Shown here: positions 326-44,869 of the stretch, one piece after another
Numbering within the stretch: the first letter of the stretch is position 1
How the letters are laid out: each line of letters begins with the position of its first letter
Source of the DNA: Roseateles puraquae
Lineage (GTDB): Bacteria > Pseudomonadota > Gammaproteobacteria > Burkholderiales > Burkholderiaceae_C
DNA: 64,000 bases
Assembly (NCBI RefSeq): GCF_002205845.1
Contig: NZ_NISI01000003.1
Location: forward strand, 62,001 to 126,000
Direction of reading: 5' to 3'
The notes under the pieces: model-generated
The model's database searches: none
What the model was told of the DNA's origin: nothing
Seen by the model: the letters and a program-made list of their open reading frames with translations, nothing else
Translations under genes and position numbers: made by a program

Positions 326-874
326 ATGAACACGACTTTTCGCCCCTCTCGCGTCCTGTGTGCCCTGCTGCTGACCGGCCTGGCCGGTGCCGCCTCGGCC
401 ACGCTCACCAAGCCCGTCTACAACACCGCCAAGGATGAAGTGAAGGCCATGTACAAGGCGGAGCGCGACAAGTGCGATTCGCTGTCCGGCAATGCCAAGG
501 ACGTCTGCGTCGAACGCGCCAAGGGCCAGGAAAAGGTCGCGCTGGCCAACCTCGAATGGCAATACACCGGCAAGGCCAAGGACCACAACGACTATCTCGA
601 AGCCCGCTACGAGGCCCGCTACAACGTGGCCAAGGAAATGTGCGACGACAAGGCCGGCAACGCCAAGGATGTTTGCGTCGCCCAGGCCAAGGCCGAGCAT
701 GACAAGGCCAAGGCCGACCTGAAGGCCAACAAGAAGATGGTCGCCGCTGAGAACGACGCCATCGAGGCCAAGCTCAAGGCCGACTACAAGGTGGCCAGCG
801 AGCGCTGCGATGCGCTGTCGGGCGACGCCAAGGACAGCTGCCAGGCCTCGGCGAAGGCGCGCTACTTCCAGTAA
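326..874 (+). CDS. Secreted protein with three C-x10-C helical repeats
   Basis: Predicted periplasmic protein of 182 residues and unknown function. Residues 1-25 form a Sec signal peptide ending in GAASA. The mature part is Lys/Ala/Asp/Glu-rich and probably helical. It holds three copies of a motif in which two cysteines are separated by ten residues, with the common core GNAKDVC or GDAKDSC. The spacing suggests a disulfide inside each helical hairpin, which is inference. Similar proteins are common in Burkholderiales, often beside BON-domain stress proteins as here. The GAGACCTCG just before the ATG supplies a modest ribosome site. A strong intrinsic terminator follows. Confidence 0.8.
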   Translation: MNTTFRPSRVLCALLLTGLAGAASATLTKPVYNTAKDEVKAMYKAERDKCDSLSGNAKDVCVERAKGQEKVALANLEWQYTGKAKDHNDYLEARYEARYNVAKEMCDDKAGNAKDVCVAQAKAEHDKAKADLKANKKMVAAENDAIEAKLKADYKVASERCDALSGDAKDSCQASAKARYFQ

Positions 875-956
875 GTCATCAGCGGTGCCGCCTGCTCAGG
901 CCGAGCGGGCGGCCACCGTGAGGCATGGCCCTCGCGGAATATCTGAAACAAGTGAA

Positions 957-38297: not shown

Positions 38298-39668
38298 TCA
38301 GGGGGCGCGGGTTCCTGGCAGCCCTCCGACATCGAGAGGCACGCAGGCCGACACCGCCGTCTCCCCACGCTGCCAGCAGGGCGCCGGCAGCGCCGCAAGC
38401 GGATGCGGCCGTCCTGAGGCATCGATGCGCCCCACCACGACCTGCAGCCCCCTGACACCCGCGGCGTCCACCTGCAGCTGCAGCAGCCAGGCCGTGTTGT
38501 TGTCGTCGTCCTTGAAACCGTCGAACAGAAAATTGCCCAGGCTGTAGACGATGGGCCGGCCCCCGTAGACCTCCACATCCTGCGTCACATGCGGATGCCC
38601 GCCCACGACGGCCGCCGCGCCGGCATCGATCATCAGCCGCGCCAGCTGACGCTGCCGCTCGTTGGCCCGCGGCTCGTGCTCCTGCCCCCAATGCATCACC
38701 GGGATGACTACGTCCGCCAGCTGCCGGGCACGCTGAATGTCCAGCCACACCTGTTCATCCTCGCTCCACGCGATGCCGGGCCGGTCGGTGTCGGCTTCGA
38801 AATGACGCGGCATGAACTCGTTGTAGCCGAGCAGCGCGATGCGCACGCCCTGACGCTCGACGATCAGCGGTGCGTGGGCCTGGGCCAGGTTGTCGCCGCC
38901 GCCGAAGTAGCCCACGCCGGCCTGCCGCAAGCGGCCCAGCATCTCGCTGAACGCCGCCGGGCCGAAATCGCCGGAATGGTTGTTGGCCAGGCCCACCACA
39001 TCCAGGTGCCGCGACAGGACCGGCAGCACGCGCGGATGCGCGCGGAAGGTGAACGGCTTGACCGGCTCGGCCTGGCCGCCCTTCGCCACGACGCACTCCA
39101 GGTTGCCCACCCGCACGTCCGCCCGCGCCAGCCAGGGCGCAAAGGGCGCGAACGGGTCGCGCCCCTGGCGGATCAGGCGCCCCGGGCCGTCATCCAGCAG
39201 CACGTCTCCCACGAACGCCAGGTTCACCATCGCATCCCCCGGCGCGCCCGGCTTCGAGGGCTCGGGGGTTTGCACCGCGCAGCGGTAGCGCAGCTCCTGG
39301 CCAAGCCCGGGCGCATAGACACGCTGCCAGCCGGAGTCCGGCCCCGGTGCGTCTGCGATGGCCCCGGCCGGGGCCGGCAACCGCACCTGCTGCAGCAGGG
39401 CGGCGCCGACATAGGTGCTGAGCGTGATGTAGGCCGGCTGCGTGCCGTCGTCCACCCACAAGGCCCGAAAGCCAAAGCGACCGAAAGGCACGCGACCCAC
39501 GCCATAGGGATCCCGCACAGGACGCACGCTCAAGCGGAGCCGACTGCTGCCCTGCGTCAGCTCGCACTGCAGCGACAGCGCTGGCTGCGCCTGGGCGGGT
39601 GCGGCCGGACGCAGGAGCAACAGGGCGCCCGCAAGCGCGAACAGGAAGCGGCGAAAGCGAAGAAGCAT
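38298..39668 (-). CDS. CapA-family metallophosphatase-like exported protein
   Basis: Protein of 456 residues with a signal peptide (MLLRFRRFLFALAG to AQAQ). The N-terminal 130 residues are an unassigned beta-rich domain; the rest is the CapA/PgsA family with a calcineurin-like fold: FVGDVLLDDG, GNLECVV, LANNHSGDFG, VMHWGQEHE, GGHPHVTQDV and YSLGNFLFDG. CapA acts in poly-gamma-glutamate synthesis or anchoring, but no capB or capC is present here, so another extracellular role is likely. A start 24 codons upstream is possible but would put extra residues before the signal. Confidence 0.85.
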   Translation of the reverse strand: MLLRFRRFLFALAGALLLLRPAAPAQAQPALSLQCELTQGSSRLRLSVRPVRDPYGVGRVPFGRFGFRALWVDDGTQPAYITLSTYVGAALLQQVRLPAPAGAIADAPGPDSGWQRVYAPGLGQELRYRCAVQTPEPSKPGAPGDAMVNLAFVGDVLLDDGPGRLIRQGRDPFAPFAPWLARADVRVGNLECVVAKGGQAEPVKPFTFRAHPRVLPVLSRHLDVVGLANNHSGDFGPAAFSEMLGRLRQAGVGYFGGGDNLAQAHAPLIVERQGVRIALLGYNEFMPRHFEADTDRPGIAWSEDEQVWLDIQRARQLADVVIPVMHWGQEHEPRANERQRQLARLMIDAGAAAVVGGHPHVTQDVEVYGGRPIVYSLGNFLFDGFKDDDNNTAWLLQLQVDAAGVRGLQVVVGRIDASGRPHPLAALPAPCWQRGETAVSACVPLDVGGLPGTRAP

Positions 39669-39855
39669 GGGAGACCGGAGCGCGCAATGCGCAAAGACAC
39701 AGGGACCTGCTCTGCCGTACGCAGCCACGGGCTTGTTCACGCCATCTCATCACCCCCTAACTTGAGGGCATCACGGCAGACCGGCCGATGGCGGGATGAC
39801 GGGCGGTTCTGCGTACCTCCTCGTGAAGGCTGGGTGTCACCAGCGCGAGGTCGCG

Positions 39856-40623
39856 ATGCTGTGGGAGAAGCTGGGAATGACGCTGGTGGGGCTGTTGCTC
39901 GTGATGGCGGCGCTGCGCCTGGGTGGGCGCCGCCTCGGCGGCCTGCTCGCCGGGCTGCCCACCATCACGGCGCCGACACTGGCCTGGACGGCCGTGGAGC
40001 ACGGCACCGGCTTTGCGGTCCAGGCAGCCATCGGCAGCGTGGCCTCGTGCGCGGCCGGGGCGCTGTTTGCATGGGCCTATGTGAGCGCGTCGCGCCGACT
40101 GGCGGCGGCCGGCGCTCTGGCCTGCGGCCTCATCGCGGCCGGCGTCGCCGCGGTCCCGGCGCTGACGGCCAGCCACGACCTGCTCGCCGCCGTGGGCCTG
40201 GCGCTGCTGGTCACCGGCCTGGCCTGGCGCACGCTGCCAGCGAGTGCAGCCACCTCAGCCCCCGAGCGCCCACCTCGGGCCGGACTGCCCGCCCTGCAGA
40301 TGGCCGGCATCGCCACGGTGCTGACGGTGGCCGTCTCGACCATCGGCCCCTGGTTCGGGCCCTACGCCACCGGGCTGCTGGCCTCCCTGCCCTTGATCAG
40401 CGCGCCGCTGGCGGTGGCTGAGCACGCCGGCAGCGGCCATCAGGCCTCGACGGAGTTCCTGCGAGGCTATGTGAAGGGTCTGTTCGGCAAGGCGGCCTTC
40501 GGCGTGGTGTTCGTGCTGCTGGCCCCAGCGGTCGGCGCGCTGCCCGCGCTGGCCCTGGCGGTGGCCGCAACCGGCCTGATGTCCCTTCATCCAGGGCCTC
40601 GGCGCCGCACGACCGCCGCCTAA
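39856..40623 (+). CDS. Polytopic membrane protein, unknown function
   Basis: Protein of 255 residues with about eight hydrophobic helices and short loops, for example GMTLVGLLLVMAALRLGG at the start and a repeated arrangement in each half (GLLAGLPTITAPTLAW; GLLASLPLISAPLAVA). The similarity of these two segments suggests an internal duplication as in many transporters. No family recognised. GAGG precedes the ATG. It ends 13 bases before the Ser/Thr kinase gene, so the two are probably co-transcribed; a link between kinase and membrane protein is inference. Confidence 0.7.
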   Translation: MLWEKLGMTLVGLLLVMAALRLGGRRLGGLLAGLPTITAPTLAWTAVEHGTGFAVQAAIGSVASCAAGALFAWAYVSASRRLAAAGALACGLIAAGVAAVPALTASHDLLAAVGLALLVTGLAWRTLPASAATSAPERPPRAGLPALQMAGIATVLTVAVSTIGPWFGPYATGLLASLPLISAPLAVAEHAGSGHQASTEFLRGYVKGLFGKAAFGVVFVLLAPAVGALPALALAVAATGLMSLHPGPRRRTTAA

Positions 40624-40636
40624 ACTCGCCGTCACC

Positions 40637-43480
40637 ATGACGCGCCTGACACCGATCGCCGAGCAATGGACACAGGTGGAATGCCTGCTGGACGAGGCCC
40701 TGGCGCTGCCTGAGCCGGCCCGCGAGGCCTGGCTGGCCGGGTTGAGCGGCGAGGCCGCCGCCCTGCGCGAGACCCTGCGCGCCCTGCTGCGCACCCAGGC
40801 CCGCATCGAAACCGACGACTTCCTGCACACGCTGCCACGTTTTGAGCCCCCCGCCGCGCCGACGACCGAACCCCATGAGGGCGAGCACGTCGGCCCCTAC
40901 CGCCTGCTGCGCGAACTCGGCCGGGGCGGCATGGGCCTGGTGTGGCTGGCCGAGCGCCACGATGGCCTGGCGGCCCGGCCCGTGGCGCTCAAACTGCCAC
41001 GGCTGGCCTGGGGCCAGGCCCTGGCGGAACGGCTGGCGCGTGAGCGTGAGATCCTGGCCTCGCTGGAGCATCCGCACATCGCACGGCTGTACGACGCAGG
41101 CCTCGACGCGCTCGGCCGGCCGTTCATCGCCATGCAGTATGTCGAGGGCGAGCCGATTGATCGCTACTGCGAGCGCCTGGCACTGCCCACGGCGGCCCGC
41201 ATCGAGCTGCTGCTGCAGGCCCTGTCCGCGGTGGCGCATGCGCATGCGCGGCTGGTGGTGCATCGGGACATCAAGCCGGCCAACGTGCTGGTGAACGAGT
41301 CAGGCCAGGTCACGTTGCTGGATTTCGGCGTGGCCAAGCTGCTGGACGGCGATCGCACCGCAGCCACCGCCCTGACCGAGGTGGCCGGCCGCGCGTTCAC
41401 GCCGGATTACGCCAGCCCGGAGCAGATCCGCGGCGAACCGCTGGGTACCGCGAGCGACATCTACAGCCTGGGCGTGCTGGCCTTCGAGCTGCTGGCCGGC
41501 GCCCGGCCCTACCGGCTGCAGCGCGGCACGGCCGCCGAGCTGGAAGAGGCCATCATGCAGACCGATGCCCCCCGGGCCAGCGATGTCGCGGCCACGCCGG
41601 CGCTGCGAAAGGTGCTGCGCGGCGACCTCGACGCCATCCTGGGCAAGGCGCTCAAGAAGTCTCCGCAGGAACGCTACGCCAGCGTGGACGCCTTAGCGCA
41701 GGACCTGCAGCGTCACCTGCGCCGCGAGCCCGTGCTGGCCCGGCCCGACAGCGCCGGATATCGCCTCGCCCGGTTCGTCGGGCGGCATCGCCTGGCCGTG
41801 GGCATGGGCACGGCGCTTGGCCTGACCGTGCTGGCCGGCAGCAGCGCTGCGCTCTGGCAGGCCCGAGAAGCGCGCACCCATGAGCGCCGCGCCAATGCCG
41901 AGCTCCGCCGGCAGCATGCGGTGCAGGAGCTCTACATCGAGACCCTGAGCCGCCTGACCGTGCTTGGTGCCGAAGAGCCCGAGGCTCTCAGCAAGCCGGG
42001 CGGCGTGTCGGCGGTGCTGATGGAGCGACTCAAAGACTTCGAGAAGCGCAACGCCGACAACCCCGAGGCCCTCGGCGCGCAGCTCGAGTCGGTCATGATC
42101 CAGCTGAACTACGACGCCCGCTACGCCGAGTCGCTGGCTGTGGGGCAGCAATTGCTGAAGCACCAGAAGGCACACGATGCACCGGCGGACGATGTGCTCA
42201 ACACCTATGCCTCGCTCGGCCGCACGCTGCAGAAGCTGGGTCGGCTCGATGAGAGCGAGGCCATGCGCCGCGAGGGCCTGCGCTGGGCGCCCACGGTGCG
42301 CGACCCCGAGAGCAACAGCATCCGCCTCACGCTGGCGGCCGATCTGGGGGACCTGCTCATCAACAAGGGCCAGCGTGCCGAAGCCCTGCAGGTGCTGACC
42401 GAAGCCGACCGCATCGCCCGCGAAACCTTTGCGGAAGACCACCTGCGCTACGACACGTTGATCAGCCTGGCGCACTTCTACCTGGGCTTCGACGACGCCA
42501 AGGGGCTGGAGCTCATGCGCCAGTCCGAGGCCGAGATCGCGCACCTGTCCAACCTGGACGCGGACTACCGCGCCAACTTCGCGTGGTGGATGAGCGACGC
42601 GCTGGCTGCCAACGGCGACCTGGCGGCGGCCGAGGTGCAGGCGACGCGCGCCGTGGAGCTCTACCGCCAGACCACCGGCCGCGACGGCCGCATGGCGCAG
42701 CGCGCGTTGAGCCGCCTGGCCAGTGTCGTCGCCCATCGGGAGCCGGCCCGCGCTGCCGCCTTGCTGGCGCAGGAGCGGCAATGGTTCGCCGCCCGCCCGG
42801 ACGGCATCAAGGGCTCGACCGAGCGCCTGCTGCGCGCCCGCGAACTGGAGGCCGCCGCGCTGGCCGGCGATGTGGCCGGGATCGAATCACTCGCGCAGGT
42901 GGACACCGCACCGCTGCTCAAGACACCCATGCCGCTGGATGGCGAGGCGCTCTTGACGCAGCTCTCACGTGCCCTCGTCCTGGCAGGCCGGGGCGAGCAG
43001 GCCTTGCCGCTGGCCGAAGCGGTGTTTGCCAAGCAGGCCGGCCGAAGTGGCGGCGTGACCCTTGCCAAGGCCAGTGCAGAGCTCACCCTGGCTCATGCGC
43101 AGCTGGCTGCCGCCCGTCCCGCGGACGCCCTGAGGACCGCGCAGGCGCTGCTGCTGCACCTCGATGAAGCCCAAGGTCAATCGCACCGCAGTTACCGCGA
43201 GGCGCTGGCCCTCGGGGCGCTCGCCGCCGCACAACTGAAGGATGCGGCCACCGCAGGCATGCTGCTGCAGCGCCTGGAGCGGCAGCCCCGCCCGCCCTTC
43301 CCCTCGGCCGTCGAGCGCGCCGACTGTGATCTGCTGCAGGCCCAGGCGCTGCTGCAACTCGGCCGCCAGCCCGAGGCGGCACAGATCGCCGAGGGTGTGC
43401 AGCGGGCGCTGGCCACGTCAGGCCTCCAGCACGCCCAGAGCCCACGCCTCCTGCAGGCCCGCACGCTGGCGGGCGCCTGA
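40637..43480 (+). CDS. Membrane Ser/Thr protein kinase with TPR-like C-terminus
   Basis: Hanks-type kinase of 947 residues. After 85 residues the kinase domain shows the P-loop GRGGMG (95-100), catalytic K119, HRDIKPANVLVN with D211, DFG at 229-231 and the PDYASPEQ activation segment, all intact. One membrane helix is near 386-406, followed by about 540 helical residues resembling TPR or TPR-like repeats, which would be periplasmic. This is the PknT-like layout found beside ECF43 sigma factors. The sigma gene is convergent, its stop only 4 bases away. Role inferred: sensing an envelope signal and phosphorylating the sigma factor. Confidence 0.9.
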   Translation: MTRLTPIAEQWTQVECLLDEALALPEPAREAWLAGLSGEAAALRETLRALLRTQARIETDDFLHTLPRFEPPAAPTTEPHEGEHVGPYRLLRELGRGGMGLVWLAERHDGLAARPVALKLPRLAWGQALAERLAREREILASLEHPHIARLYDAGLDALGRPFIAMQYVEGEPIDRYCERLALPTAARIELLLQALSAVAHAHARLVVHRDIKPANVLVNESGQVTLLDFGVAKLLDGDRTAATALTEVAGRAFTPDYASPEQIRGEPLGTASDIYSLGVLAFELLAGARPYRLQRGTAAELEEAIMQTDAPRASDVAATPALRKVLRGDLDAILGKALKKSPQERYASVDALAQDLQRHLRREPVLARPDSAGYRLARFVGRHRLAVGMGTALGLTVLAGSSAALWQAREARTHERRANAELRRQHAVQELYIETLSRLTVLGAEEPEALSKPGGVSAVLMERLKDFEKRNADNPEALGAQLESVMIQLNYDARYAESLAVGQQLLKHQKAHDAPADDVLNTYASLGRTLQKLGRLDESEAMRREGLRWAPTVRDPESNSIRLTLAADLGDLLINKGQRAEALQVLTEADRIARETFAEDHLRYDTLISLAHFYLGFDDAKGLELMRQSEAEIAHLSNLDADYRANFAWWMSDALAANGDLAAAEVQATRAVELYRQTTGRDGRMAQRALSRLASVVAHREPARAAALLAQERQWFAARPDGIKGSTERLLRARELEAAALAGDVAGIESLAQVDTAPLLKTPMPLDGEALLTQLSRALVLAGRGEQALPLAEAVFAKQAGRSGGVTLAKASAELTLAHAQLAAARPADALRTAQALLLHLDEAQGQSHRSYREALALGALAAAQLKDAATAGMLLQRLERQPRPPFPSAVERADCDLLQAQALLQLGRQPEAAQIAEGVQRALATSGLQHAQSPRLLQARTLAGA

Positions 43481-43484
43481 GGCT

Positions 43485-44039
43485 TCAGCCGCGCAGCGCG
43501 TGCGCCAGCAGCAGCCGGGCCTTCTCCCAGGCACGGTGCACGCTGCGGGTGGACAGGCCCAGCGCCTCGGCAATCTCGGCGTCCTTCATGCCGACGAAAT
43601 AGCGCATCTCCACCACCTGCACCAGGCGGGCATCCAGCTGACCCAACTGCTGCAGGGCGGCTTCGACGTCGAGGATGTCCTCGGCCGGTGCTGCGAGCGA
43701 ATCCGCGAGCACGCTGTCCAGCGTCTGGCGTTCCAGGTCCCCGCCACGCCGCGCGGCCAGCGCCTGGCGTGCGGTGTCCACGATGATCGAGCGCATCACG
43801 GTCGCCGCGTAGGCCAGGAAATGCGCCCGGTCCTCCGGCCTCAGGCTGTCGCGCTGCACAAAGCGCAGATAGCACTCGTTGACCAGGGCCGTGGTGTCCA
43901 GCAGGCCACCGCGCTGGTGCGGGGCCAGGCGGCGGTGGGCAATCTCGCGCAGCTCCGGGTAGAGCAACGCAAAGAGGCGGTCCAGCGCCCCGCGGTCCCC
44001 CGCGCGGGCCTGCACGATCAGCTGTGTGACATCTCCCAT
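43485..44039 (-). CDS. ECF-type sigma factor, ECF43-like
   Basis: Extracytoplasmic-function sigma factor of 184 residues. Region 2 is about residues 8-90 and region 4 about 125-184 (VVEMRYFVGMKDAEIAEALGLSTRSVHRAWEKAR). Region 2.2 reads LLDTTALVNECYLRF, the pattern of the TIGR02999/ECF43 class, where the acidic DAED-like patch of ordinary ECF factors is missing. In the studied case (EcfP of Vibrio) phosphorylation of a threonine by the partner kinase PknT supplies the negative charge. T49/T50 here are candidate sites. No anti-sigma gene is present. Start at MGDVTQLI; a longer N-terminus from 44081 is less likely. Confidence 0.88.
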   Translation of the reverse strand: MGDVTQLIVQARAGDRGALDRLFALLYPELREIAHRRLAPHQRGGLLDTTALVNECYLRFVQRDSLRPEDRAHFLAYAATVMRSIIVDTARQALAARRGGDLERQTLDSVLADSLAAPAEDILDVEAALQQLGQLDARLVQVVEMRYFVGMKDAEIAEALGLSTRSVHRAWEKARLLLAHALRG

Positions 44040-44134
44040 CGGTCGGCGTCCTGGCATGGCGCCCCAGCGGCGCGACCGCATGCTAGCCGCGCAGGCATCA
44101 TCGACACTGCGCGCCCCGCCCGGCAGGATTCACC

Positions 44135-44869
44135 ATGTCCCCCACAACCGCTTCGAGCCGCATCGCCGACCTCATCCAGGCCCTCGCCGCCAGCCATCGC
44201 AGCGGCCTCCTGCTGGACGCCACCGCGTGGACGGACGCCGTACGCGACGAGGCCGACGCGTATGCCGTGCATGACGGCGTGGCCCGCGCCCTCGGGTGGC
44301 CGGCCACACGCTGGAAGTCCGGTGGCGCCGGCCCGCAGGGGCCGTTCAGTCATTCGCCGGTGTCGCCCGAGCCCGGCGCGGTGCTGCTCGGCGTGGAAGC
44401 CGAGGTCGCGTTGCGCCTGGCGCGCGACATCAGCCCCGAGGCTGCGCAGGCGCCGCTGGACGCTGGCGTCATCGACGGCATGTGCATCGCCGTCGAGTGC
44501 ATCGCCTCGCGCTGGCGGCAGGCGCTCGACGCGCCCGCCCTGCTGCGCATGGCCGATTTCCAATCCAACGCCGGCCTGCTGCTCGGTCCCTGGCAGGCCT
44601 GGCAACCGCTGGACTGGGCCCGTCTGCCGTGGCGCCTGACTCTGGCCGACGAGCCCGAGCTGCAGCGCCAGGGCGGCCATTCGCTGGGCGACCCGTCGGG
44701 TGTGCTGGCAGCCTGGCTGCGTCACGCCACGCGGCATGGCGAGACGGTGCGAGCCGGCACGGTCGTCACGACCGGCGCCTGGGGTGGCGTGCACCGCTGC
44801 ACCGGCCGCGCCACCGGGACACTCGCCATCGACGGCCTGGGCGCCTTCAGCTTTTCAGCAGGGGCGTGA
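44135..44869 (+). CDS. 2-keto-4-pentenoate hydratase-like protein
   Basis: Protein of 244 residues in the MhpD/fumarylacetoacetase-like family, normally hydrating 2-hydroxypenta-2,4-dienoate in aromatic catabolism. Landmarks are the N-terminal helix with AYAVHDGVARALGWP, GVEAEVALRLARDI with the metal-binding Glu residues, VECIASRW and VRAGTVVTTGAWGG. AGGA lies upstream. No other meta-cleavage genes are adjacent, so the substrate is open. It converges with the CSD-DUF1294 gene and the two coding regions overlap by 23 bases. Confidence 0.82.
   Translation: MSPTTASSRIADLIQALAASHRSGLLLDATAWTDAVRDEADAYAVHDGVARALGWPATRWKSGGAGPQGPFSHSPVSPEPGAVLLGVEAEVALRLARDISPEAAQAPLDAGVIDGMCIAVECIASRWRQALDAPALLRMADFQSNAGLLLGPWQAWQPLDWARLPWRLTLADEPELQRQGGHSLGDPSGVLAAWLRHATRHGETVRAGTVVTTGAWGGVHRCTGRATGTLAIDGLGAFSFSAGA

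Follow-up and report, generated by a model that had tools for sequence, protein, structure and literature searches.

A probable ECF43-type sigma factor and Ser/Thr kinase pair in Roseateles puraquae, with variable sensors and a recurrent membrane protein among its relatives

The window analysed here, a stretch of 64,000 nucleotides from Roseateles puraquae, carries an ECF sigma factor gene that runs convergently into the gene of a membrane-bound Hanks-type Ser/Thr kinase. We consider it highly probable that the two form an ECF43-type pair, in which a periplasmic signal activates the kinase and phosphorylation of Thr50 (T50) switches the sigma factor on. By the traits checked (family, kinase neighbour and a Thr at the phosphosite), the core system appears to be of the known ECF43 type, with the first Asp of its motif retained. 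A previous sequence-only reading of this DNA had described the sigma factor as ECF43-like; the family, the kinase neighbour, Thr50 and the loss of the Glu and of one Asp agree with that description, one motif acid being retained.

The sigma factor, the kinase and the predicted switch

The features of the locus are given in Table 1; the coordinates previously proposed for the kinase, sigma and membrane protein genes were all correct. The membrane protein and kinase genes are separated by 13 bases and form an operon, and the kinase and sigma stop codons (43480 and 43485) leave a verified gap of 4 bases between the convergent genes. Outside this core, the CapA-like protein matches PF09587 at 3.6e-71, and an FAA-hydrolase-type gene diverges from the sigma gene. 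As previously claimed, no anti-sigma gene accompanies the pair: none of the seven flanking window proteins scanned belongs to an anti-sigma family. No sigma-70-like promoter was found in 39600-44300, and one terminator-like site was detected on the minus strand within the sigma gene (shuffles: 0.8). The sigma reading frame could open as far up as 44081; its start is likely at 44039, because the related genome G012 carries a stop just upstream and the reading frames of L188, L191, G017 and G008:C14 open there too.

Table 1. Positions of the features of the locus within the window
Feature	Position	Strand	Basis
CapA-like (PGA_cap, PF09587) gene, divergent from the membrane protein-kinase operon	38298..39740	-	
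CCCCCTAACTTG, between the capA-like gene and the operon; candidate promoter element	39753..39764	+	
Membrane protein, 255 aa, two homologous halves; recurrent, optional neighbour of ECF43-type pairs	39856..40623	+	
Hanks-type Ser/Thr kinase, 947 aa	40637..43480	+	
Kinase parts: N-terminal extension; kinase domain 88-355; membrane helix ~387-408; periplasmic TPR-type solenoid ~410-947			Pfam (kinase domain)
ECF sigma factor, 184 aa (MGDVTQ start), TIGR02999 / PF07638	43485..44039	-	
Thr50, second Thr of D48-T49-T50-A51; region 2.2, EcfP/EcfK phosphothreonine position	43890..43892	-	Motif line-up
Thr106, sigma2-sigma4 linker (RQTLDS); probable counterpart of EcfK T106	43722..43724	-	

The sigma factor scores 178.7 bits against TIGR02999 (cut-off 126.15) and 1.7e-45 against PF07638, models that we infer to correspond to ECF43. 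Its region 2.2 reads D48-T49-T50-A51-L-V-N-E, as against the canonical D-A-E-D-L-V-Q-E. The acidic patch had been described as absent; the Glu and the second Asp are indeed gone, whereas Asp48 is retained, and the loss is thus partial. According to excerpts of the published accounts, the corresponding motif is STTA in EcfP, with the second Thr phosphorylated by PknT (PMC8999054), and QATE in EcfK, with T51 phosphorylated (PMC13147305). Lining these up with DTTA makes T50 the counterpart of both phosphosites and thereby settles an earlier choice between T49 and T50. A Thr at the EcfK T51 position is reported, in the same excerpts, for 88% of ECF43 factors (PMC13147305). Our own alignment of the sigma homologues covers 111 of 113 homologous places (two left out), 110 of them with residues in the motif. 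Thr occupies the third motif position in 82/110 and throughout the window's sigma clade (12 rows); Asp occupies the first, as it does in the window factor, in 42/110, and position 3 or 4 is acidic in 14/110. The EcfP residue at the T50 place is numbered T63. Among plasmid records, the sigma factor found matches in six only, below 60% identity, and the membrane protein found none. A sigma gene 98% identical to the window's occurs in a metagenome-assembled genome labelled Methylotenera (L186, JAIPCJ010000103.1), a label that is probably wrong.

The kinase had been read as an intact Hanks kinase, and its match to PF00069 (2.6e-40), with the glycine loop, HRDIKPAN, DFG and SPE all present, is in line with this. 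By a wide margin its best PDB match is 9eed (E 9e-51 with the whole protein and 1.3e-51 with residues 1-371), which excerpts of the published account identify as residues 1-364 of PknS of X. citri (PMC13147305). The alignment with 9eed_A spans kinase residues 8-361, and the N-terminal extension is thus covered. The membrane helix was read from the sequence: the window protein itself stays below the hydropathy cut-off, and 9/10 relatives exceed it at the matching place. The structure predicted for the C-terminal 577 residues is an all-helical alpha solenoid (pLDDT 85.3). This model has 145 PDB matches at E <= 0.001, the best 50 of which we take, from their entry names, to be largely TPR-type solenoids; the protein also has two weak TPR matches in Pfam. 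The helix and the solenoid support what had been proposed for this protein, a single membrane helix followed by a TPR-like extracytoplasmic part. The kinase thus has the PknS-type domain order, with N-terminal extension, Hanks domain, one membrane helix and periplasmic TPR part.

These features suggest the following course of events. With T50 and A51 in place of the Glu and Asp of ordinary ECF factors, the sigma factor would be made inactive or only weakly active, region 2.2 being the docking surface on the beta' clamp of RNA polymerase. Because Asp48 is kept, it may be not fully inactive in the absence of the kinase. The TPR solenoid would read a periplasmic signal and activate the membrane kinase, which would phosphorylate T50 and perhaps also the linker residue T106. 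The phosphate would restore negative charge and allow the sigma factor to join core polymerase, and an anti-sigma factor would not be required. The membrane protein and the CapA-like protein could serve as a sensor helper or as an output.

Although phosphorylation of T50 is very likely the mechanism, a switch role of T50 does not follow from the pairing by itself, since 27/110 homologues have no Thr or Ser at this place and a kinase lies within 2 kb in 26 of those 27. It is conceivable, if rather unlikely, that the kinase acts mainly through T106 in the sigma2-sigma4 linker and that T50 is secondary or inert. PknS directly phosphorylates EcfK at T51 and at four linker sites, and phosphorylation of T51 or T106, either one, is reported to be enough; EcfK T51A still restores function in vivo in X. 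citri, so that one linker site may suffice (excerpts of PMC13147305). Across our alignment, the linker site is Thr in 88/111 homologues and Ser in 6/111 (94/111 together), and 22/27 homologues devoid of a Thr or Ser at the T50 place retain one in the linker. The two sites do not, however, compensate for one another: the linker Thr or Ser is present in 22/27 homologues that lack, and in 71/83 that have, such a residue at the T50 place (Fisher p 0.76). Moreover, the linker site is Pro in G009 and also in G012, whose sigma factor is 80% identical to that of the window and yet keeps DTTA. Whole groups of sigma paralogues with SRGD, AAGD, AKGD, GAGD, EPAA or DTQA at the motif, some of them with Asp at position 4, are without a region 2.2 phosphothreonine and offer natural tests of control through the linker or another site.

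Pairing, gene order and promoter motifs in relatives

Conservation of the pairing had been set as a test of the original proposal, and it held in both samples examined. In 100 genomes of relatives, sigma homologues occupy 113 places in 28 genomes, the own genome (G000) included. A kinase lies within 8 kb at 104/113; three are clearly without one, with at least 3.8 kb examined on either side (G006:C6, G003:C38, G024:C18), and six are undecided where contig ends intervene (G014:C101, G014:C112 and four of G011). The neighbour tables give a kinase match within 8 kb at at least 100/113 places, in a kinase search that scored at most the best 8 candidates per genome. When the surrounding DNA was scanned with HMMs, 11/113 places were left without a kinase, two of which are paired in the window or the neighbour tables. 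At order level, 29 sigma places were found at E <= 1e-38 in 18/399 genomes, and a kinase was present at all 20 of the loci fetched (20/20); eight of the other nine were covered in other comparisons and one (G761:C18:67680) was left out. The TIGR02999 cut-off was passed in 18/369 class-level genomes and in 0/14 control genomes. Sigma genes of this kind number up to nine in a Roseateles genome (G012), and the genus thus provides a test bed for kinase-sigma specificity; the own genome has six such sigma factors and, besides the window's, five other pairs.

Gene order also bears on whether the kinase and the sigma factor are partners at all. Were they mere neighbours, with the sigma factor controlled by its own expression only and the kinase acting on other substrates, the convergent arrangement would be easy to accommodate, as it makes a shared transcript impossible in the own genome, and so would the orthologue of the window kinase in G010, which has no sigma gene nearby. 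We consider this very improbable. Among the 100 places paired in the tables, 82 (82/113 of all homologues) are tandem with the sigma gene first, 2 are tandem with the kinase first, 11 are divergent and 5 convergent. The nearest relatives are likewise tandem: L188, L189, L191, G008:C14 and G024 have sigma then kinase, and G017 and G483 have membrane protein, sigma and kinase in that order on one strand. Immediate convergence (gap <20 bases) occurs among the 113 only in G000 and G012, the genes in the other three convergent cases being 1.6 to 7.2 kb apart. Given that relatives are mostly tandem, the sigma gene was most likely inverted locally in the G000/G012 line and the convergence is derived, to judge from these comparisons. 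Such an inversion would have uncoupled the sigma gene from transcription of the kinase.

Motifs upstream of these genes were also considered. CCCCCTRACT lies upstream of the operons of the window and of G012, of the kinase gene in G010 and of sigma genes in G026 and G054. The own genome contains CCCCCTRACTTG twice (reversed control 0). Definition of a regulon by promoter motif was rejected: the relaxed motif gave 7 sites against 22 control sites, and the other sites examined share no theme. Separately, a conserved sigma paralogue (DTQA, DTTA or similar; G000:C36:220819-221379, L074, L256) is preceded in 19 genomes by AACCCGACA, about 75-170 bases before the sigma domain. AACCCGACATCG has 4 occurrences in the own genome, and only that of the G000:C36 paralogue precedes a sigma gene; the motif there is perhaps an autoregulatory or regulator site.

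Second sensor kinases and the recurrent membrane protein

The relatives raise the possibility, which we put forward tentatively and at somewhat less than even odds, that the sigma factor is a hub with interchangeable sensors, phosphorylated by both linked (A) and unlinked (B) kinases and with a duplicated transporter-like protein as a third component. Altogether 116 different kinases of the window type were found in the DNA examined (126 reading frames before duplicate copies were merged). Fourteen of them have no sigma gene within 8 kb, and five of those 14 belong to the window's kinase clade. Four of the five (in G000, G014, G012 and G008) are second copies, their genomes holding the clade's single sigma factor as well; the sister kinase of the own genome, with sensor B, lies at G000:C43:113645-116572. 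Among the 20 genomes of the genus, an unlinked second copy is found in 4/6 with the clade's sigma factor and 0/14 without it, an association with p 0.003, or 0.01 when G014 (a near copy of G000) is removed, in both cases with shared descent ignored. The fifth unlinked kinase is the G010 orthologue mentioned above, in a genome rated 100% complete that is without the clade's sigma factor. This gene (G010:C36:145727-148663, L058) adjoins type IV secretion genes (TrbL/VirB6, VirB4-like, SLT) and a LuxR-type regulator, and may be carried by a mobile element. Four kinases of about 850 aa (G000:C1:110865-113429, G010:C40, G017:C43, G005:C16) form a clade of their own, none of them with a sigma gene in the DNA examined.

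The periplasmic sensors were grouped by BLAST into two families after a first kinase tree had been seen. Family A comprises the kinases of the window, G012:C28, G010, G017, G008:C14 and L189 and one G810 kinase; family B comprises the four unlinked copies and the kinases of G483, G024 and G009. These last three adjoin sigma genes of the window's own sigma clade (12 rows, support 99/95, G483, G024 and G009 included), at a distance of 7.2 kb in G009. Taken together with the two-kinase loci described below, we read these placements as a sign that several sensors may serve one sigma factor in some lines. Each periplasmic sensor family is one clade (100/100), whereas the B kinase domains do not form one (AU p 0.0037); monophyly of the A kinase domains is not rejected (p 0.17). 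Furthermore, the B kinases of G000, G014 and G012 cluster with the A kinase of G017 (98/96). Because the sensor families are monophyletic and the B kinase domains are not, it seems that a common kinase domain has acquired different sensors by exchange.

At a locus in G810 (G810:C4), a single sigma gene (59% identical) has two kinase genes in tandem behind it, whose sensors differ, and the membrane protein is present in two copies. Two kinases beside one sigma gene were seen at 2/20 order-level loci, one of which has a third, weaker kinase match. Against the hub, two kinases proper to one sigma gene within 8 kb were found at 0/113 places in the relatives: more than one kinase reading frame is present at 11/113, ten of these being one kinase counted twice (whole and cut) and G013:C18 being two nearby pairs. 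In a careful sigma tree, the G810:C4 factor falls beside, and not clearly inside, the window's sigma clade (united with it in 48% of bootstraps). The two-kinase locus may therefore belong to a sister line, which slightly lowers the odds of several sensors sharing the window's factor. Also unfavourable to the hub is a careful kinase tree, in which the kinases of G009 and L191 do not fall within the window's kinase clade and the 17 kinases that we assigned to the sigma clade take 3 changes instead of 1.

The membrane protein matched no family in Pfam or NCBIfam and gave no clear match in a fold search against the PDB; its two halves are homologous (hhalign 95.6%, E 1.2e-8). Homologues are present in 11/100 relatives, and in 4/11 (G000, G012, G017, G008:C1) they adjoin an ECF43-type pair, that of G008:C1 having a sigma factor of a different clade. 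At order level, homologues occupy 58 places in 56/399 genomes. Wider surroundings were obtained for 21 places in 19 genomes other than the own: 4 places in 3 genomes (G810 twice, G483, G621) lie beside a pair and 17 do not, and the three most similar order-level homologues are among those four. The remaining places were covered with 1.5 kb flanks or left out. Thus, the membrane protein stands beside ECF43-type pairs in seven genomes and in several arrangements, a recurrence that lends support to the earlier idea that it belongs to the system. It is absent from the other order-level sigma loci (0/20), and we therefore regard it as an optional partner. The family is a concrete candidate for a missing signal input or output.

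A near full-length CapA-like gene occurs in 3/20 Roseateles genomes, these being the three in which the membrane protein adjoins the pair; in G012 and G017 it lies near the system with another reading frame in between, and G004 and G010 have partial matches with a stop. G014 has no linked kinase, membrane protein or CapA-like gene, absences that are probably due to its contig ending 176 bases past the sigma gene. Among the papers listed in literature searches on CapA together with an ECF sigma factor and a kinase, and on several kinases acting on EcfP or EcfK, none was relevant, which does not mean that nothing is published; a 2020 survey of ECF43 kinases lay outside both.

Relation to EcfK-PknS and EcfP-PknT

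Should several sensors indeed serve one factor, some ECF43 systems would be many-to-one, unlike the one-kinase-one-sigma model for EcfP and EcfK, and if both kinases act on it, several envelope signals would be integrated on a single threonine.

The comparisons that follow draw on excerpts of the published accounts. The window pair resembles EcfK-PknS of X. citri (ECF43) in the build of its kinase, in which an N-terminal extension precedes the catalytic domain, a single membrane helix and a TPR part in the periplasm, and in the Thr that its sigma factor bears at the region 2.2 site, together with a linker Ser/Thr (PMC13147305). It differs in its motif, DTTA instead of the QATE of EcfK, and in its surroundings: PknS-EcfK serves a T6SS, whereas no T6SS family was found in the seven flanking window proteins. 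Unlike in EcfK-PknS, the window genes are convergent and are accompanied by an extra membrane protein and a CapA-like gene, and elsewhere in the genome lies an unlinked sister of the kinase. EcfP-PknT of Vibrio parahaemolyticus (ECF43) answers polymyxin, and the first motif position is Ser in EcfP and Asp in the window factor. In both, however, a Thr-containing motif replaces DAED, and EcfP-PknT is described as having no anti-sigma factor (PMC8999054, PMC8103513), as is likewise the case among the flanking window proteins scanned.
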